64,000 nucleotides of DNA from contig NZ_JAFBIS010000006.1 of assembly GCF_021531435.1 (NCBI RefSeq), positions 1 to 64,000 on the forward strand, given 5' to 3'. This stretch comes from Oscillibacter valericigenes. Lineage in GTDB: Bacteria > Bacillota > Clostridia > Oscillospirales > Oscillospiraceae. Made by a program: the position numbers and the translations under genes. The notes under the pieces were generated by a model. It was not told the origin of the DNA. It was given only the letters and a program-made list of their open reading frames with translations, and did not search any database. This document shows, one piece after another, positions 2,285 to 11,106 of this stretch. Position 1 is the first letter of the stretch. The number at the start of each line of letters is the position of its first letter.

Positions 2285-4687
2285 ATGGAGTTTCCGGCAC
2301 ATATACGCATTCAGGAGGACGGTACGCGGAACATTCAAAGTGTTGCGGAACATTGCCGCGGGGCAGCGCGCTGCGCAGCCGAGTCTCTGGGCGGTATCGG
2401 CTTATCCAAAGCGGCCTATCTGACCGGACTGCTGCATGACTTGGGCAAGGCCACGCCGGAATTTCAGGCTTACATCGAGAGTGCGGTCAACGGGGAAGCA
2501 GTCCGGCGCGGAGCGGTGGTCCATACCTTTGCAGGGGTGCGGCTGCTGCTGGAGCAGTACCACGGGCCAACGCCGGCTTCTTACGATGACATCACATGCG
2601 AGCTTCTGGCGTTCGCCATCGGCTCCCATCACGGATCATTCGACTGTGTCGGTGAAACACGCTCCTCCGGTTTTCAGCACAGGCTGCTGTCCCATGACAG
2701 CGAGTACCGCGAAGCCGTGCAAAACTTTTTGAGCAGCTGCGCCGGTCAGGATGAAATCGATTCATTGTTTCGGGCTTCCTGCCAGGAGCTGACAGGTGTT
2801 TTCGAAAAAATCCAGGACCAGTTGTGTACAGATGCCGCCCTTGCCCGTCGGGAGCTTCCCTTCTATGTCGGACTTACGGCACGGCTTCTGCTGTCAGCGG
2901 TGATTCAGGGCGACCGCCGGGATACCGCGGAATTTATGACCGGAACGGCCCGGCCCGTGTTTCCGGAAGACAGGCGTCCGCTCTGGGAAGCCCGGCTCCG
3001 GTATATGGAGCAAAAGCTCGCTCGCTTTCCGTCTGAGACGGACATTCAAAAAGCCCGGCGGCAAATTTCAGACCAGTGCCGTCTTTTTGCGGAACGGCCG
3101 GGCGGGGTCTTCCGGCTGAACGTGCCCACCGGGGCGGGAAAGACTCTGAGTTCCCTGCGCTATGCCCTGACCAATGCCGCGCGATGGAACAAATCCCGCA
3201 TTATTTTCACCGCGCCGCTGCTGACGATTTTGGAGCAGAACGCCCAGGTCATCCGGGACTACGTAGGCAATGACAGCATCATTCTGGAGCATCACTCCAA
3301 CCTCGTCCGCACACAGGAGACCCCTGAACAGCTGGACCTTCAGGAGCTGCTGGCCGAGGATTGGAGCGCACCTGTCATCATTACCACGCTGGTCCAGCTG
3401 CTGAACACCCTGTTCAGCGGAAAGACCACCTGCATCCGCCGGTTTCAGGCCCTCTCCAACAGCATCATCATTCTGGACGAAGTGCAGACCGTGCCCGCAA
3501 AAATGCTGACGCTTTTCAATCTGGCCGTGAACTTCCTGTCGGAGGTCTGCGGCACCACCGTGGTGCTTTGCTCCGCCACGCAGCCCTGCCTGGAAAAGAC
3601 CGCGTATCCGCTGGTATCCGTTCCAAAGGACATCGTCCCCTATGACCGGGAATTGTGGAAGGCATTTCGCAGAACGCAAATTCAAAACGCCGGGAATATG
3701 CGGCTGGAGGATATTCCGGCCTTCGCGCTGGAAATTCTGGAGAGCGCGGACAGCCTGCTGATCGTATGCAACAAGAAAGACGAGGCGGCGTATCTCTACC
3801 GGGAGCTGTCCCATGGTGATCTCTATTGCTGCCACCTGTCCGCCGCCATGTGCACAGCCCACCGCCGGACGGCGCTGGCCGGTCTCCAGACTGCATTGGC
3901 CTCGGGTGAAAAGACCGTCTGCGTGTCCACGCAGGTCATTGAGGCGGGTGTGGACATCTCCTTTGAGCGGGTGATCCGGCTCTCCGCCGGGATGGACAGC
4001 GTGGTGCAAGCCGCCGGGCGCTGCAACCGCAACAGCGAGCAGGCCGGTCCCGCTCCGGTCTACCTGGTGCAGTGCCAAAACGAGAATCTGGCAAGGCTGC
4101 CGGATATTCAGCGTGGAAAAGACGCCACGGGAGAACTGCTGGCGCAGTACTGCCGGCGGCCGGAGCGGTTCCAGAACGATCTGGCCTCCGACGAGGCGAT
4201 CGGTTATTACTATCACCGCCTTTATCAGGAGATGCCGGATGGATTTCAGGATTACAGAGTCGAGGGAAAGCACTATACGGTCTTCTCGCTCCTGTCCGAC
4301 AACAGCTTTTTCTCCGATGACCGGGCGGAGGCCCACGGCACCTACTTTTTGAACCAGGCTTTTCAGCTGGCCGGCAGGCTGTTCCAGGTGTATGACGAGG
4401 ACAGCCTGGATGTCATCGTTCCATATAGGGAAGGCCGGACGGTAATATCCGCTCTGCGCTCCGACCGGGCCAGGCGGGATCTGGCATACCGCCGGAGCTG
4501 TCTGGAGCAGGCCAAGCCATACACGGTCTCCCTGTATCAATACCAGCGGCAGAAGCTGGAGCAGGCGCACGGCCTGCTGCCCATCCGGGACGATGACGCC
4601 AGCGTCTGGGTACTGGCAGAGGGGTTCTATGACGAGGAGACCGGCTTCTCACAAAACGGAACCACAGCACAATTTTGGGAGGTGTAA
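2285..4687 (+). CDS. cas3: Cas3 nuclease-helicase, type I-C
   Basis: Encodes the effector nuclease-helicase that is recruited by Cascade to nick and unwind target DNA. The N-terminal HD nuclease domain has LLHDLGK at about residues 48-54, a later IGSHHG histidine pair, and space for the usual metal site. The superfamily 2 helicase follows: Walker A PTGAGKT at about 281-287, motif II DEVQ at about 398, SAT in CSATQP, and motif VI QAAGRCNRN at about 576-584. At 800 residues it is normal for I-C. It is first in an operon in which every downstream gene overlaps or nearly touches its neighbour. No inactivating change was seen, so interference should be possible. Confidence 0.96.
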   Translation: MEFPAHIRIQEDGTRNIQSVAEHCRGAARCAAESLGGIGLSKAAYLTGLLHDLGKATPEFQAYIESAVNGEAVRRGAVVHTFAGVRLLLEQYHGPTPASYDDITCELLAFAIGSHHGSFDCVGETRSSGFQHRLLSHDSEYREAVQNFLSSCAGQDEIDSLFRASCQELTGVFEKIQDQLCTDAALARRELPFYVGLTARLLLSAVIQGDRRDTAEFMTGTARPVFPEDRRPLWEARLRYMEQKLARFPSETDIQKARRQISDQCRLFAERPGGVFRLNVPTGAGKTLSSLRYALTNAARWNKSRIIFTAPLLTILEQNAQVIRDYVGNDSIILEHHSNLVRTQETPEQLDLQELLAEDWSAPVIITTLVQLLNTLFSGKTTCIRRFQALSNSIIILDEVQTVPAKMLTLFNLAVNFLSEVCGTTVVLCSATQPCLEKTAYPLVSVPKDIVPYDRELWKAFRRTQIQNAGNMRLEDIPAFALEILESADSLLIVCNKKDEAAYLYRELSHGDLYCCHLSAAMCTAHRRTALAGLQTALASGEKTVCVSTQVIEAGVDISFERVIRLSAGMDSVVQAAGRCNRNSEQAGPAPVYLVQCQNENLARLPDIQRGKDATGELLAQYCRRPERFQNDLASDEAIGYYYHRLYQEMPDGFQDYRVEGKHYTVFSLLSDNSFFSDDRAEAHGTYFLNQAFQLAGRLFQVYDEDSLDVIVPYREGRTVISALRSDRARRDLAYRRSCLEQAKPYTVSLYQYQRQKLEQAHGLLPIRDDDASVWVLAEGFYDEETGFSQNGTTAQFWEV

Positions 4688-4689
4688 GC

Positions 4690-5418
4690 GTGAAGAATAC
4701 GAAATATCCGAATATCGTGGAATTTCAGGTGACCGGAAACTATGCCTTGTTTTCCGATCCCATCCTGCGTCTCGGCGGAGAAAAATGCACCTATCAGGTG
4801 CCGACCTACGAGGCGCTGAAGGGCATTTTATCTTCAACGTATTGGAAGCCTACGTTTATTTGGTACATCGATGCCGTCCGGGTAATGAACCCCATCCAAA
4901 CGGAGGTCAAGGGTATCCGGCCCGTCAAGTACCACGGCGGCAACGACCTGGCGTATTATACATACCTCAAGAACTGCCGCTACCAGGTGCGGGCCCATTT
5001 TGAGTGGAACGAAAACCGCCCGGAGCTGGCCGGAGACCGCAGCGAGAACAAGCACCATGAGATCGCCAAAAAGATGATCCGCAAAGGAGGCCGCCGGGAT
5101 ATTTTCCTGGGCGCCCGGGAGTGTCAGGGCTACGTGGAGCCCTGTGTGTTCGGCGAGGGGGCGGGCCATTACGATTCCCTCCCGGAGCTGGGCTTCGGCC
5201 TGATGTACCACGGCATCACCTACGCGGACGAGGCGTACTCCGAGGAAACGGCGGGCAAAATGACGGCGAATTTCTGGAGCCCGGTCATGCGGCAGGGCGT
5301 GATCACCTTCCCAAAGCCGGAGGAATGTCCCCTGCACAAGATGCTGCGGACTATGGAGGTCAAGCCCTTCGGCGAGGGCAGCTTCACCGGCCTGCGGGAA
5401 TTCGGGGAGGTGAACTGA
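4690..5418 (+). CDS. cas5c: Cas5c, crRNA-processing endoribonuclease
   Basis: In type I-C systems Cas5c replaces Cas6: it cuts the repeat transcript to give the 5' handle and stays on the crRNA end in Cascade. The protein reads NIVEFQVTGNYALFSDP then RLGGEKCTYQVPTYEALKG near its start, typical of the family. It has an aromatic STYWKP segment near residue 50 and an NKHHE motif near 120, where the Bacillus halodurans enzyme carries its catalytic tyrosine and Lys-His. I chose GTG at 4690 because GGAGGTG (4678-4684) precedes it, 2 bases after the cas3 stop. Length is 242 residues. The residue equivalences are inferred by position only. Confidence 0.93.
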   Translation: MKNTKYPNIVEFQVTGNYALFSDPILRLGGEKCTYQVPTYEALKGILSSTYWKPTFIWYIDAVRVMNPIQTEVKGIRPVKYHGGNDLAYYTYLKNCRYQVRAHFEWNENRPELAGDRSENKHHEIAKKMIRKGGRRDIFLGARECQGYVEPCVFGEGAGHYDSLPELGFGLMYHGITYADEAYSEETAGKMTANFWSPVMRQGVITFPKPEECPLHKMLRTMEVKPFGEGSFTGLREFGEVN

Positions 5419-7221
5419 ATGGGACTGCTGCAAAAGGCCTGTGAGACCTATGACTGCCACGCCCACTATGCGGGCCTGCCGCGGGAGGGCCATGAGACCC
5501 TGGCGCCTGTCTCCCACATCCTCACCTCCGCGCAGATCGAAATTACCCTGGATCAGGACGGAAACTTCGTGAGTGCCCGGGCGGTGGACAAAGCAGAGCC
5601 GAAAATCGTGATCCCGGTCACGGAGGAGTCCGGCGGGCGCACCTCCGCTCCCTGCGCCCACCCGCTCTGTGAGCAGTTGGGATACCTGGCGGACTATGAT
5701 GAAAAGAAGCATGCCCTGTATGTGGACCAGCTGGCCGACTGGGCGGACTCGCCTTACGGACATCCCAAGCTCCGGCCCATTCTGGCCTATGTCAGGGGCG
5801 GAACGATTTTGACCGACCTGGCCGGGAGCGATGTGATCCATCTGGATGAAACGGGCCGTCCAAAGGACGAGAAGGCGCTGGTGCGGTGGCGTGTCATCGG
5901 CCTGGATGCCGAGGAAAACGCCGCCTGCTGGACGGATCAAAGCCTGTTCCGCGCGTTCATCGGCTATTACAGGGCAAAAACGGAGCAGCAGGCGCAGGCG
6001 CTGTGCATGATCGGCGGAAATCTGGCCAGGCCCGCCAGCCAGCATCCCAAGGGGATCATCCCCCTGTGCGGCGGCAACGCCAAGCTGATCTCCTCTAATG
6101 ACAGCAGCGGCTTTACCTACCGGGGCCGTTTTTCGGAGGACTGGCAGGGGGCCACGGTCAGCTATGAGGCGTCTCAGAAGGCCCACAACGCCTTGCGCTG
6201 GCTGGCGGCGGAGCAGGGCGCGCAGGCGGTATACGGCGGCAGAGCCTTTTTATGCTGGAATCCCCAGGGGAAAAAGGTGTGCGGTGTGACCGGACCGTTC
6301 CGGATCAACACGGAGCCCGTCACGGAGCCCACGGAATATCAGGAGGATCTAAAAAAGGTCCTGCTGGGCTACAAGGCGGCGCTGCCGGAGAGCGCAGGCG
6401 TGGTGATCGCCGCCTTTGACGCCGCCACCACGGGGCGCCTGTCCCTGACCTATTACAACGAGCTGCTGGGCTCCGATTTTCTGGAAAGGCTGTACGACTG
6501 GGACGCGTCCTGCTGCTGGCCGAACCGAAGGGGCGAGATCTGGTCGCCCTCCCTTCTTCAGATTGTCAACTGTGCCTTTGGAACCCAGCAGGGACAGCTG
6601 CTGAAAACCGACGACCGCGTGCTGAAGCAGCAGATGCAGCGGCTGGTATCGTGCCGGGTGGACCGGGCCAGGCTGCCCGCCGACATCAAGCAAGCACTGG
6701 TACAGAGGGCCTCCAGGCCGCTAGCCTACGAGAAGGCGGTGCGGGAAAAAATTCTGTTTACCGCATGTGCCGTTTTGAAAAAATATGATTTTGACCGAAA
6801 CAGGGAGGAATGGAACATGGAACTGGACCCCAGCAAGCATGACCGCAGCTATCAATTTGGACGACTGCTGGCCGTTCTGGAAAAGGTGGAGCGGGATACC
6901 TACGGCAGTGACGAGGGGCGGGAGCCCAATGCCATCCGGCAGCAGTCGGTGTTCTGCCAACGGCCCATGTACGCGGCAGCCAACATTGAAAAACAGCTGG
7001 AACGGGCCTACTTCCCCCGTCTGCGGCCCGGTACGCGGGCGTTTTACAAAAACCTGATCAGTCAGATCATGGAAGAGATCCACAAGTTCCCGGACAGCCA
7101 GTGGAACCAGCCTCTGGCAGATACGTATTTGATGGGCTACTATCTCCAGCGCGGCGCGCTGTACGCACCCAAGGAAAAACATATTGAGGAGGACAACGAA
7201 AATGAGCACATTGCAGAATAA
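5419..7221 (+). CDS. cas8c: Cas8c (Csd1), large Cascade subunit
   Basis: Large subunit of the type I-C surveillance complex, which recognises the PAM and holds the R-loop. It starts with ATG immediately after the cas5c stop, with GGGGAGGTG just upstream. The 600 residues match the family's usual length. Characteristic stretches include YFNELLG-type text (LTYYNELLGSDFLERLYDW at about 350) and SPSLLQIVNCAFGTQQG near 376. The C-terminal 134 residues form the small-subunit region, which has its own internal start (separate entry). The 3' end overlaps cas7 by 20 bases. No frameshift is visible. Confidence 0.93.
   Translation: MGLLQKACETYDCHAHYAGLPREGHETLAPVSHILTSAQIEITLDQDGNFVSARAVDKAEPKIVIPVTEESGGRTSAPCAHPLCEQLGYLADYDEKKHALYVDQLADWADSPYGHPKLRPILAYVRGGTILTDLAGSDVIHLDETGRPKDEKALVRWRVIGLDAEENAACWTDQSLFRAFIGYYRAKTEQQAQALCMIGGNLARPASQHPKGIIPLCGGNAKLISSNDSSGFTYRGRFSEDWQGATVSYEASQKAHNALRWLAAEQGAQAVYGGRAFLCWNPQGKKVCGVTGPFRINTEPVTEPTEYQEDLKKVLLGYKAALPESAGVVIAAFDAATTGRLSLTYYNELLGSDFLERLYDWDASCCWPNRRGEIWSPSLLQIVNCAFGTQQGQLLKTDDRVLKQQMQRLVSCRVDRARLPADIKQALVQRASRPLAYEKAVREKILFTACAVLKKYDFDRNREEWNMELDPSKHDRSYQFGRLLAVLEKVERDTYGSDEGREPNAIRQQSVFCQRPMYAAANIEKQLERAYFPRLRPGTRAFYKNLISQIMEEIHKFPDSQWNQPLADTYLMGYYLQRGALYAPKEKHIEEDNENEHIAE
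6817..7221 (+). CDS. cas11c: Cas11c small subunit from an internal start in cas8c
   Basis: Type I-C complexes contain several copies of a small subunit translated from inside the cas8c message (established for Desulfovibrio I-C). Here the signal is clear: AGGGAGGA at 6802-6809 lies 7 bases before an in-frame ATG at 6817, in the middle of cas8c. The product would be 134 residues beginning MELDPSKHDRSYQFGRLL, mainly helical by appearance, which matches the expected size. It ends at the same stop as cas8c. The expression is inferred from the ribosome site and precedent, not shown. Confidence 0.8.
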   Translation: MELDPSKHDRSYQFGRLLAVLEKVERDTYGSDEGREPNAIRQQSVFCQRPMYAAANIEKQLERAYFPRLRPGTRAFYKNLISQIMEEIHKFPDSQWNQPLADTYLMGYYLQRGALYAPKEKHIEEDNENEHIAE

Positions 7222-8044
7222 GATCGATTTTGTGGCGCTGATCTCGGTCAGCATGGCCAACGCCAACGGAGATCCCCTCAACGGGAACCGGCCCCGGACG
7301 GATTACAATGGCTTCGGTGAGATCTCCGACGTGTGTATCAAGCGGAAAATCCGCAACCGGATGCAGGACCAGGGATACAAGGTCTTTGTCCAGTCTGACG
7401 ACCGGAGCGACGACGGCTGCGGCAGCCTGAGCGAGCGGGCCTCCGCCGTTCTGAAGGGCATGAAGGACCGGGAGGAGGCTGTCAAAAAAGCCTGTGAGAC
7501 CTGGCTGGATGTACGTACCTTCGGACAAGTATTTGCGTTTAAATCCAAAGATGCCGGTCCCTCCATAGGTGTGCGGGGCCCGGTCTCCATCCATCAGGCG
7601 GTCAGCGTCTCCCCCATTGAGGTGCAGTCTCTCCAGATCACCAAAAGCGTCAACGGCGAGCCGGGCGAGAAGCGCTCCTCCGACACCATGGGCATGAAGC
7701 ATTTCGTCCAGTTTGGACTGTATCAGCTCAAGGGCTCCATCAATGTGCAGCTGGCGGAAAAGACGGGCTTTTCAGAGGAGGACGCGGAGGTCGTCAAGGA
7801 ATGCCTGCGGACCCTGTTTGTCAACGACGCCTCCGCCGCCCGCCCGGACGGCTCCATGGAGGTCGTCAAGCTCTACTGGTGGCGCCACAACTGCAAAGAG
7901 GGACAATACTCTTCGGCCCGGGTGCACCGTTCGGTAAAGGCCACGCTGAAGGACCCGGAGCTGCTCCCCTCTTCCGTCGACGACTATGTCATCACGCTGG
8001 AAGAGCTGCCCGGTCTGGAGCCGGAAGTGATCGATGGAGTATAA
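7202..8044 (+). CDS. cas7c: Cas7c (Csd2), crRNA backbone subunit
   Basis: Backbone protein of Cascade; multiple copies coat the crRNA spacer. The start reads KIDFVALISVSMANANGDP followed by GNRPRTD, the Csd2 signature, and DTMGMKHFVQFGLY lies mid-protein. I chose ATG 7202 because GAGGAGG at about 7186-7192 is well spaced, rather than the TTG at 7184 that is part of the ribosome site itself. Length is 280 residues, normal. It overlaps cas8c by 20 bases and cas4 by 11, suggesting translational coupling and high expression from one message. Confidence 0.95.
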   Translation: MSTLQNKIDFVALISVSMANANGDPLNGNRPRTDYNGFGEISDVCIKRKIRNRMQDQGYKVFVQSDDRSDDGCGSLSERASAVLKGMKDREEAVKKACETWLDVRTFGQVFAFKSKDAGPSIGVRGPVSIHQAVSVSPIEVQSLQITKSVNGEPGEKRSSDTMGMKHFVQFGLYQLKGSINVQLAEKTGFSEEDAEVVKECLRTLFVNDASAARPDGSMEVVKLYWWRHNCKEGQYSSARVHRSVKATLKDPELLPSSVDDYVITLEELPGLEPEVIDGV

Positions 8045-8693
8045 AGAGGAGGACTATCTCCAGATCTCCGGCCTCCAGCACTTCAAATTCTGCCGCCGGC
8101 AGTGGGCGCTGATCCACATCGAAAACCAGTGGGCGGAGAGCTGGAGGACCACGGACGGGAAGATCATGCATGAAAAGGCCCATGACGCATCGTCGAAAGA
8201 GCGGCGCGGCGATCTGCTGGTCACCCGGGACATGCCTGTCTTTTCCCGCGTGCTGGGTATTTCCGGCGCCTGCGATGTGGTGGAGTTCCGCAGGTCCGAG
8301 GCAGGGGTGCCCCTCCACGGGCAGGAGGGCCTATATCAGCCCTTCCCCGTGGAGTATAAGCGCGGCTCGCCCCGCGGGGACACCTCCAACGCCCTGCAGC
8401 TCTGTGCCCAGGCTATGTGCCTGGAGGAGATGCTGTGCTGCGGGATCCCGGAGGGCGCCCTGTATTACGGGGAACCCCGCCGCCGGGAAACGGTAAAACT
8501 GACGCAGGAACTCCGGCAGGAGGTCCGGGACTGTCTTGCGGAAATGCACGCGCTGTACGAAAGGGGTTACACCCCCAGGGTGAAACCCACAAAAGCCTGC
8601 AGCGCCTGTTCCCTGAAAGAGCTCTGCCTGCCCAGGCTCCTGCGCGGCGGTTCCGCCCGGGACTATGTGAAGGCGAGATTGGAGGAACTATGA
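8034..8693 (+). CDS. cas4: Cas4 Fe-S exonuclease for spacer processing
   Basis: Cas4 trims prespacers and selects those with the right PAM together with Cas1-Cas2. The 219-residue protein shows QHFKFCRRQWALIH at the N-terminus, giving the first iron-sulfur cysteine, and CSACSLKELCLP near residue 193, giving the other three. RecB-family nuclease residues appear as GACDVVEF (Asp) and FPVEYKRG (Glu and Lys). It overlaps cas7 by 11 bases, and its stop overlaps the cas1 start codon as ATGA. The gene looks intact although its partner cas1 is not. Confidence 0.94.
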   Translation: MEYKEEDYLQISGLQHFKFCRRQWALIHIENQWAESWRTTDGKIMHEKAHDASSKERRGDLLVTRDMPVFSRVLGISGACDVVEFRRSEAGVPLHGQEGLYQPFPVEYKRGSPRGDTSNALQLCAQAMCLEEMLCCGIPEGALYYGEPRRRETVKLTQELRQEVRDCLAEMHALYERGYTPRVKPTKACSACSLKELCLPRLLRGGSARDYVKARLEEL

Positions 8694-9789
8694 GGCATTT
8701 GCTGAACACCCTTTTTGTGACATCAGAAGATGCCTATTTGACTCTGGACGGCGAAAATGTAGTGGTCAACCGGGACAAGCAGGAGATGGGGCGGTTTCCT
8801 CTGCACAACCTCTCCGGCATCATCTCCTTCTCTTACGCCGGCGCGTCCCCAGCCCTGATGGGGGCCTGTGCCGCGCGGGACATCGGTCTGGCGTTCTGCA
8901 CGCCGAGAGGCCGCTTCCTGGCCCGCACCACCGGGTTCAGCAATGGAAATGTGCTGCTGCGCCGGATGCAGTACCGCGCGGCGGATGACCGGCTTGTCCA
9001 GATGCTTGCCGCTCATTTCTGTGGCTGCGCCGGATGCAGTACCGCGCGGCGGATGACCCCGTCCAGAGCTGCCGGATCTCGAAATACATGATATTCGGAA
9101 AATTGTATAACGCCCGCTGGAGTATCGAGCGCACCCGCAGAGACCACGCCCCCCGGATTGACGGAGAAAAGTTCCGGGCCGCGTCAGAGACCATCAGGGG
9201 GCTGCTCTCCCAGGTCGCGGAGGCGTCCTCCCCGGAGTCTCTGCGGGGTCTGGAGGGTGTCGGCGCGGCGGCGTATTTCAAGGTATTCGACGACATGATC
9301 CTCCGGGAGAAGGCGTCCTTTTATTTCCACGGCAGAAACCGCCGGCCGCCGCTGGACAACGTCAACGCCATGCTGTCCTTTGCCTATGGCCTTTTGGCCA
9401 ACGACTGTGCCTCGGCACTGGAGAGCGTGGGCCTGGACGCCTACGTAGGATTTCTCCACAGGGACCGTCCCGGAAGGGTCTCTCTGGCCCTGGATCTGAT
9501 GGAAGAGCTGCGTCCCTGCATGGCGGACCGGTTCGTTCTGACAATGATCAACAACCGGGTTATGACGCCCGATGATTTTGATGAATCGGAAAACGGTGCG
9601 GTCCGCATGTCAGACGACGCCAGGAGAAAATTTCTGAAAAGCTGGCAGGAGCGCAAGCAAGAGGTCATTACCCACCCTTACCTGGGGGAAAAACTGCCAT
9701 GGGGACTGGTGCCATATATGCAGGCATTGCTGCTGGCGCGGTATCTCCGGGAAGATCTGGACGCATATCCGCCCTTTTTATGGAAGTGA
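8690..9789 (+). pseudogene. cas1: cas1 integrase, frameshifted by a 68-bp insertion
   Basis: Cas1 is the integrase that inserts new spacers. From ATG 8690 the frame reads HLLNTLFVTSEDAYLTLDG and matches Cas1c for about 100 residues, then leaves frame at about 9000 and stops at 9091 (133 residues). A second frame, from ATG 9034 to 9789 (251 residues), resumes at MQYRAADDPVQ and contains the active-site region, with SLRGLEG then YVGFLHRDRPGR. Removing 68 bases restores one frame of 343 residues, the family's normal length, so the gene was intact recently. The insertion is a 35-bp exact duplication around 33 bp of other sequence. Either the gene is dead or it yields two fragments. The downstream ATG has no good ribosome site. 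Confidence 0.9.
8956..9058 (+). repeat. 35-bp exact duplication flanking 33 bp inside cas1
   Basis: Positions 8956-8990 and 9024-9058 are identical over 35 bp (GCTGCGCCGG to GGCGGATGACC), with 8991-9023 between them. The offset is 68 bp, which is not a multiple of three, so it breaks the cas1 frame. The copies contain the palindrome CCGCGCGG. Perfect identity means the event is recent or an assembly artefact. Confidence 0.95.
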
Positions 9790-9799
9790 GGCACGCCAA

Positions 9800-10090
9800 A
9801 TGCTGGTACTGATCACCTATGACGTCAACACGGAAGACGCTGCGGGACGCAAGCGGCTGCGGCAGATCGCGAAACAATGTGTGAACTATGGTCAACGCGT
9901 TCAGAATTCTGTATTTGAATGCGTTGTCGATGCAGCACAGGCTAAAATGCTGCAGCACAAGCTCTGCGCGATCATGGATGACAAACGGGACAGTCTGCGG
10001 TTCTATTATTTGGGAAATCATTATCAAACCAAGGTCGAACACTTTGGAGCAAAAGCGACTTATGAAGCGGAAGGTGTGCTGATCATTTAA
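9800..10090 (+). CDS. cas2: Cas2, Cas1 partner in spacer acquisition
   Basis: Small ferredoxin-fold protein that dimerises to bridge two Cas1 dimers. The 96 residues begin MLVLITYDVNTED, with the conserved strand and aspartate, continue RLRQIAKQCVNYGQRVQNSVFEC and end AEGVLII, all typical of I-C Cas2. It starts 10 bases after the cas1 stop behind GTGAGG. It is intact. Its value without a whole Cas1 is doubtful, though a Cas1 supplied in trans could use it. Confidence 0.95.
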   Translation: MLVLITYDVNTEDAAGRKRLRQIAKQCVNYGQRVQNSVFECVVDAAQAKMLQHKLCAIMDDKRDSLRFYYLGNHYQTKVEHFGAKATYEAEGVLII

Positions 10091-10271: not shown

Positions 10272-11106
10272 GTCCCACCCCGCACGGGGTGGGTGGATTG
10301 AAATGATTTGCTCCAGGAAGTTGTACCATACTCTCCCAGTCCCACCCCGCACGGGGTGGGTGGATTGAAATTGCCGTATGACCTCACATTTGCACTCCCG
10401 ACTGAGTCCCACCCCGCACGGGGTGGGTGGATTGAAATTTCAGCTGATACATAAAGCCCTCCCGTTACTCTCAGTCCCACCCCGCACGGGGTGGGTGGAT
10501 TGAAATGTTGCTTGCCGCTGACTGCGTCGGATGCCATGCCGGTCCCACCCCGCACGGGGTGGGTGGATTGAAATTGCGGGGTAAATCACATCGCCAACCG
10601 CGGAAGTCGTCCCACCCCGCACGGGGTGGGTGGATTGAAATTTTATAGCCCGTCCGGGCCTGTACCGCCTGTATGGTCCCACCCCGCACGGGGTGGGTGG
10701 ATTGAAATTCCACAGTTCCGGCAGTAGAACGCCTTGAACCAGTCCCACCCCGCACGGGGTGGGTGGATTGAAATACCGGCCGCCGGGTCCAGGGCGACGC
10801 CGCCCAGGGTCCCACCCCGCACGGGGTGGGTGGATTGAAATTTCACGCCGTGCTCCACCAGGTCCGCCACCACGCCGTCCCACCCCGCACGGGGTGGGTG
10901 GATTGAAATTTCTGACTGACCCTCCATATGGCGTTGCTCTTGGGTCCCACCCCGCACGGGGTGGGTGGATTGAAATATCGCCCTGCGTAAGGGTATCTCT
11001 TTCCTGATTTGTCCCACCCCCACGGGCAGGTGGATTGAAATGAATTCGGCACAGAGCAAATCGTCGCCCACCATGAGTCCCATTCAACGGAATGGGTGAA
11101 TGAGCT
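10272..11106 (+). CRISPR. Type I-C CRISPR array, 12 repeats plus one relic
   Basis: The 33-bp repeat runs from GTCCCACCCCGCACGGGG to TGGGTGGATTGAAAT. Starts are 10272, 10339, 10406, 10474, 10542, 10609, 10676, 10742, 10809, 10877, 10944 and 11011. Repeats 1-11 are identical. Repeat 12 (11011-11041) is 31 bp with several changes, and a 13th, much altered copy lies at 11077-11106. The twelve spacers are 33-35 bp and all different. The inverted core CCCACCCC/GGGGTGGG forms the hairpin that Cas5c cuts below. Leader is on the left, trailer on the right. None of the spacers obviously matches this window by eye. Confidence 0.98.

Follow-up and report, generated by a model that had tools for sequence, protein, structure and literature searches.

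A spacer-sized, phage-like insertion between two copies of its target in cas1 of a type I-C CRISPR-Cas locus of Oscillibacter valericigenes

The spacer integrase gene cas1 of Oscillibacter valericigenes (NCBI RefSeq assembly GCF_021531435.1) is broken, in the stretch analyzed here, by 68 extra base pairs made up of a perfect duplication of local sequence around a phage-like insert with the size of a CRISPR (clustered regularly interspaced short palindromic repeats) spacer. The window, meaning the whole stretch of DNA that was analyzed, comprises positions 1 to 64,000 of contig NZ_JAFBIS010000006.1 (64,000 nucleotides, forward strand) and contains the type I-C CRISPR-Cas locus to which this cas1 belongs. 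A repeat search placed the two copies of the 35-bp target at 8956-8990 and 9024-9058 (a perfect direct repeat, 35/35 identical, start spacing 68), with the 33-bp insert between them at 8991-9023; together with the reading frames, the search bears out a preliminary description of this DNA, according to which a 68-bp insertion, a perfect 35-bp duplication around 33 bp, breaks the gene. A phage-like insert as long as a spacer, inside a target duplication of nearly repeat length, is what integration by Cas1-Cas2 characteristically leaves behind, and we regard the 68 bp as very probably the mark of a single off-target event in which the type I-C machinery of the cell wrote a spacer into cas1. The same explanation had been put forward in the preliminary description, and it is supported by the phage-like insert, the duplication, the spacer size and the empty site in relatives.

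In size, the insert (33 bp) compares with array spacers of 33-35, and duplication plus insert (68 bp) compare with array periods of 66-68; the period, 33-bp repeats and spacer lengths given for the array in the preliminary description agree with the measured array. The duplication in cas1 exceeds chance. A survey of 370,749 bases (5,275 of them N), made up of the window and 20 stretches of this genome, gave seven perfect direct repeats with a length of 30 bp or more and a spacing of 12-399 outside the array, the cas1 pair being one of them. The other six were three repeats of period 63 belonging to one tandem repeat (locus L050), a 41-bp pair, a 33-bp pair at a spacing of 190 that by eye resembles tRNA sequence, and 15-bp units forming a run of 30 bp. 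Besides the cas1 pair, no isolated pair of at least 30 bp at a spacing of 50-90 was present in this ~365 kb of the genome. The 41-bp pair is itself a perfect direct duplication, located on contig C30 (L052, 11155-11195 and 11368-11408) with a start spacing of 213.

Relatives of cas1 have an uninterrupted site. When the gene was compared at the DNA level within the genus, relatives matched in 16 of the 86 genomes, the own genome included; the empty-site count was based on 12 loci, leaving out the own genome and three genomes with short matches (G059, 174 bp; G028, 35 bp; and G026, 26 bp, the last being the phage match described below). Aligned with cas1 DNA of the genus, the query falls into two pieces, positions 1 to ~300 and positions from 334 on; in the best pairs, these pieces overlap in the subject by 33-35 bases, approximately the length of the duplicated target. 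At the protein level, the site is uninterrupted in 12/12 genus loci (11 by pattern match, the twelfth read directly) and likewise in all 80 loci of a second collection, which have 30 or 31 residues across it; these 80 are the best of 104 loci found with the 3' part of cas1, and 7 of their contigs are, judged by length, also in the genus set. The comparison with related cas1 genes proposed in the preliminary description thus finds the insertion in none of these relatives (0/80 and 0/12), and none of the 80 has MLA, AHF or LVQ across the site. These alignments indicate that the insertion-bearing cas1 is not the ancestral state. Furthermore, the 80 loci (618,670 bases) were scanned for similar scars, as perfect direct repeats of at least 22 bp at spacings of 50-89. 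The scan gave 1,330 matches, and the isolated pairs among those listed are CRISPR-like repeats; up to the end of cas1 it gave only 15 matches, all in locus L068, and the four displayed are CRISPR repeats.

The origin of the insert is best read on the minus strand, where its reverse complement is CACAGAAATGAGCGGCAAGCATCTGGACAAGCC. Positions 8-33 of this sequence match 25/26 bases in one genome of the genus (G026:C15:36754-36779, loci L016 and L170) and 24/26 in another (G063:C3:65071-65096, loci L140 and L171). In both, the match begins exactly at the ATG of a small gene (MSGKRLDKP...) that overlaps the stop of the preceding gene and is followed by a small gene and then by a PHROG endolysin. 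The insert has the same anatomy, as CAG AAA TGA closes one frame (..QK stop) and ATG AGC GGC AAG CAT CTG GAC AAG CC starts the next (MSGKHLDKP). The first 14 bases, part of which lie outside the G026 and G063 matches, match 14/14 in a third locus (G234:C1, L194), apparently at the same gene overlap, judged by eye, and upstream of an endolysin gene; with an E value of 0.09, this match was weighed for its position only. Under a uniform random model, 86 genomes would be expected to yield ~6e-5 matches of 26 bases with at most one mismatch and ~2e-3 with at most two, and a reversed control pattern was found in 0/86 genus genomes at up to three mismatches. The lysis-cassette gene family has 27 relatives in IMG/VR viral contigs, and the one viral contig examined (L142) carries tail and tail-fibre genes upstream. 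The G026 phage protein has one relative in phage records (E 3e-6, 35% identity), and plasmid records yielded no relative of the G063 protein. Judged from these similarities, the insert is phage-like lysis-cassette DNA and not cas1 DNA. A phage or plasmid match had been named beforehand as support for integration, and the 25/26 and 24/26 matches to prophage-like lysis-cassette DNA of the same genus provide it; the frame LVQMLAAHF, which had been taken as faintly Cas1-like, turns out to be the antisense of the start of a phage gene.

Some further observations concern the same DNA. The own genome has a diverged homologue of the lysis-cassette gene (58-61% amino acid identity; G000:C11:21256-21543, loci L169, L174 and L241), with a lysozyme-like frame, recognized by eye, downstream. 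Its match to the insert is only 18/26, which suggests that the insert came from another phage or from one absent from the assembly. At ~600-700 in L016 (G026:C15), the lysis cassette abuts what appears by eye to be an ABC-transporter ATP-binding gene, with the 3' end reading into the phage side; this junction is possibly a prophage attachment boundary or a misjoin. The insert also has an 18-bp match with one mismatch on own contig C5 (L047; E 0.07-0.09) and shares an 11-bp word with array spacer 4 (10509-10519), one of many matches of 10-13 bp.

The insertion divides cas1 into two parts. The 5' part (8690-9091, plus strand; start codon placed by eye) encodes ~100 native residues, then runs in a shifted frame to a stop at 9089-9091. 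The 3' part (9034-9789, plus strand) is an open frame of 251 amino acids that begins at an ATG in the second target copy and encodes the C-terminal (catalytic) domain. This part matches Pfam Cas_Cas1 (E 7.7e-76) and positions 92-340 of the 340 in the NCBIfam profile TIGR03640 (Cas1c), with a score of 356.7 against a whole-protein cut-off of 385, and it corresponds to residues 94-343 of a solved Cas1 chain (PDB 8d3l). The break looks recent, given that the frame of the 3' part has no other interruption and that this part stays close to related genes, with identities of up to 78%. The 68 extra bp shift the frame, and full-length Cas1 is consequently lost.

In normal adaptation, Cas1-Cas2 attaches one 3' end of a prespacer to each strand of a repeat, at opposite ends, and gap filling then doubles the repeat; the result is spacer-sized foreign DNA with a copy of the target on both sides. 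In the cas1 event, the agent would be the own Cas4-Cas1-Cas2 machinery of type I-C, and the prespacer, ~33-35 bp long, would have come from the DNA of an infecting phage, excised where two lysis-cassette genes overlap. Its two ends would then have been joined by the integrase to opposite strands, ~35 bp apart, within cas1, and gap repair would have copied the intervening 35 bp, generating the order duplicate, insert, duplicate. With the frame shifted by 68 bp, full-length Cas1 would have been lost and acquisition most likely halted, whereas cas3, cas5, cas8c and cas7, which serve interference, would have stayed intact along with the array. The duplication, the relationship of the insert to phage DNA, its lack in the relatives examined, the disrupted frame and the open genes nearby are observed; Cas1-Cas2 as the agent, this order of events and the loss of acquisition are inferred.

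Several observations weigh against an integration event of this kind. The site is known from the assembly alone, in one strain of the species, and the exact source of the insert was not found in any collection searched. Exact and degenerate insert patterns gave no match in viral contigs, an insert 24-mer gave none in the genome contig collection, and searches with the insert returned 17 phage records (best E 0.03) and 5 plasmid records (best E 0.3). At up to three mismatches, the insert occurs in its own 96.8%-complete assembly at the cas1 site only; it is thus not a copy of other DNA of this genome, which speaks for integration. The whole 33 bp, again at up to three mismatches, occurs in 400 family genomes (own included) only at that site. 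It is important to consider that the genuine array finds nothing better than E 0.07 in phage records; as the real array is likewise unmatched, the phage and plasmid nulls for the insert say little. The search of phages and plasmids suggested in the preliminary description gave no exact match, and related prophage-like loci were found in genomes of the genus. The same description had proposed to look for a protospacer with a TTC-type protospacer-adjacent motif (PAM), and TTC was absent beside the match in the three homologues, in both orientations; all three diverge from the insert outside the match and so need not show the PAM of the true protospacer, and G234, which matches to the insert's end, has AGA there.

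The target itself also departs from expectation, as the duplication measures 35 bp and the repeat 33 bp. The 2-bp excess might come from one base matching by chance at each edge or from a ruler that measures loosely; a chance match at the edges and a longer stagger would look alike. Over the full 33 nt, target and repeat agree at 13/33 positions, a level reached by ~6.5% of positions; being ordinary, this full-length likeness was dropped as evidence. Read on the minus strand in a 33-bp register placed one base in, the target starts with GTC and agrees with the opening 16 nt of the repeat in 11/16 bases. Agreement this good occurs at ~0.065% of window positions per strand; in cas4-cas1-cas2, it is reached by five of 3,986 strand-positions, and the two copies account for two of them. 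However, this placement is one of six, and the half was chosen after the fact, so that the half-site likeness is no more than suggestive. In the GTC placement, the bases flanking the 33-bp insert would join a 35-nt spacer, bases that the homologues do not confirm. The loose likeness between target and repeat noted in the preliminary description is thus confined to the leader-proximal half, in one orientation. A final difficulty is the likeness of the insert to the cas1 DNA after the second copy, where GTCCAGA-GC-TGCCG is common to both in 14/16 columns with two gaps. The similarity pointed out in the preliminary description is real, since only 0.2-0.4% of shuffled inserts reach it; among 40-mers taken from the window or the operon, 1.3-2.1% give an equally good score with the insert, and we take the likeness as probably due to chance.

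This likeness would fit recombination with a second cas1 allele, or misassembly against one, in which case the 33 bp would be a diverged piece of cas1 placed after the shared 35 bp. The motif rarely equalled by shuffled inserts and the frame LVQMLAAHF speak for such an origin, which the preliminary description had called a serious alternative. However, across the site all 80 relatives carry 30 or 31 residues, with no MLA, AHF or LVQ among them, and the insert agrees with phage-like DNA in 25/26 bases. On these grounds, and within the range of relatives examined, recombination between alleles is rejected, and we give this explanation next to no credence. An assembly artefact, with the 68 bp missing from the DNA of the cell, gains some weight from the fact that the site is known only from an assembly of 93 contigs (genome of 2.8 Mb, 96.8% complete). 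Against this, phage DNA between two target copies presumably needs reads that join both junctions, and the sequence that the insert has in common with its surroundings is short, no more than 5 bp for the target and 6-7 bp for the 60 bp on each flank. With so little shared sequence, both junctions must exist in some molecule, which makes an origin in assembly unlikely. The site also lies ~9 kb inside a contig of 125 kb (the contig bearing the window), in an assembly with a contamination estimate of 0.02%, and we consider the artefact very improbable.

Generic double-strand-break repair is another way to obtain the same structure, without Cas1-Cas2. A staggered break of ~35 nt would have been filled, and a scrap of phage DNA caught by end joining. 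End joining can capture DNA scraps, and phage degradation products are at hand during infection. On this account, a spacer-sized insert and a near-repeat-sized stagger would both have arisen by chance, beside a spacer integrase, and the scans found no other isolated pair of the kind in the ~365 kb of the own genome and none outside CRISPR-like repeats up to the cas1 end in the loci of the 80 relatives. Break repair is thus unlikely in our judgment, and integration by Cas1-Cas2 remains the preferred explanation.

The gene order cas3-cas5c-cas8c-cas7c-cas4-cas1-cas2, established by family profile searches, and the adjoining array identify a type I-C locus in which cas1 is split. All features are on the plus strand, and the genes other than cas1 are open frames: cas3 (2285-4687; TIGR01587, TIGR01596), cas5c (4675-5418, start unrefined; TIGR01876), cas8c or csd1 (5419-7221; TIGR01863), cas7c or csd2 (7184-8044, start unrefined; TIGR02589), cas4 (8034-8693; TIGR00372, PF01930) and cas2 (9800-10090; TIGR01573, PF09827). 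The array (10272-11041) consists of 11 exact repeats of 33 nt followed by a degenerate one. Its exact repeats are separated by ten spacers of 34, 34, 35, 35, 34, 34, 33, 34, 35 and 34 nt, and the last spacer has 34 nt. The last repeat (11011-11041) appears by eye degenerate and shortened to 31 nt, which is usual at the trailer end of arrays. At up to three mismatches, the array repeat was found in the assembled genome at the array only. Since cas4, cas2, cas3, cas5c, cas8c and cas7c are open and match their families and the array is regular, the cell most likely keeps interference and has stopped new acquisition, judging from the frames and the array.

Array spacers were also compared with 35 loci at a threshold of at least 74% ungapped identity, for which reversed controls gave no match. 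Spacer 11 (10977-11010) matches 30/34 in G074:C9 (L237); TTC, as expected of a type I-C PAM, lies directly 5', which makes this site a candidate protospacer. Other genus genomes hold weaker matches, of spacer 9 at 26/35 with TTC and at 27/35 with TTT, and of spacer 8 at 29/34 and 26/34, both without TTC. The array spacers thus seem to have matches in genus genomes similar to those of the insert.

The mechanism of off-target integration is not new, and the striking part is an integrase that hits its own gene. Nivala, Shipman and Church reportedly described in 2018 (Nat Microbiol 3:310), for the Escherichia coli I-E system, target duplication and a likeness of the sites to the native array, and they are said to have proposed a few putative natural cases in other species. 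Passages in PMC11788318 (citing Nivala et al. 2018; see also PMC9456107) report that, under Cas1-Cas2 overexpression, spacers integrate off target into non-array chromosomal regions. Like the off-target cases described there, the cas1 scar holds spacer-sized foreign DNA in a non-array chromosomal site; unlike the overexpression cases, as far as those passages describe them, it concerns a type I-C system, Oscillibacter and cas1 itself. Ectopic spacer acquisition inside arrays is described in parts of a study of Streptococcus thermophilus (PMC7999890) and of a review (PMC8047081), and shares with our case an integration away from the leader-proximal repeat; there the events lie within the array, whereas here the target is coding sequence. 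For S. thermophilus Cas1-Cas2 in vitro, the relevant sections of PMC6895254 state that off-target sites resemble the leader-repeat junction, that a ruler element positions the second site, which shifts when the surroundings of this element are altered, and that gap repair duplicates the target during integration. That system, as those sections present it, is of type II-A, used plasmids and gave what its authors consider likely half-site products, in contrast to the full-site scar fixed in a genome here. Full-text searches of an open-access library turned up no report of a spacer integrated into cas1.

Natural traces of Cas1-Cas2 outside arrays seem to be rarely documented, and the scar in cas1 adds one in which the phage-like insert can be read and the duplication is perfect. 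CRISPR array finders would probably miss scars of this kind, which would pass for ordinary frameshifts. The combination of a phage-like, spacer-sized insert with a repeat-sized duplication offers a search signature with which to gauge how often the integrase mutates its host. It might be imagined, although we think it improbable, that the integrase now and then inserts a spacer into its own gene, which resembles a repeat, and that such self-hits recur in nature as an off-switch, with the array frozen and interference kept. On this improbable view, the two halves of Cas1, an N-terminal domain and a catalytic domain for which the second copy supplies an ATG, might even still be produced apart from each other and act as a split integrase. 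At the least, the scar suggests a concrete route by which adaptive immunity could lose its acquisition arm.
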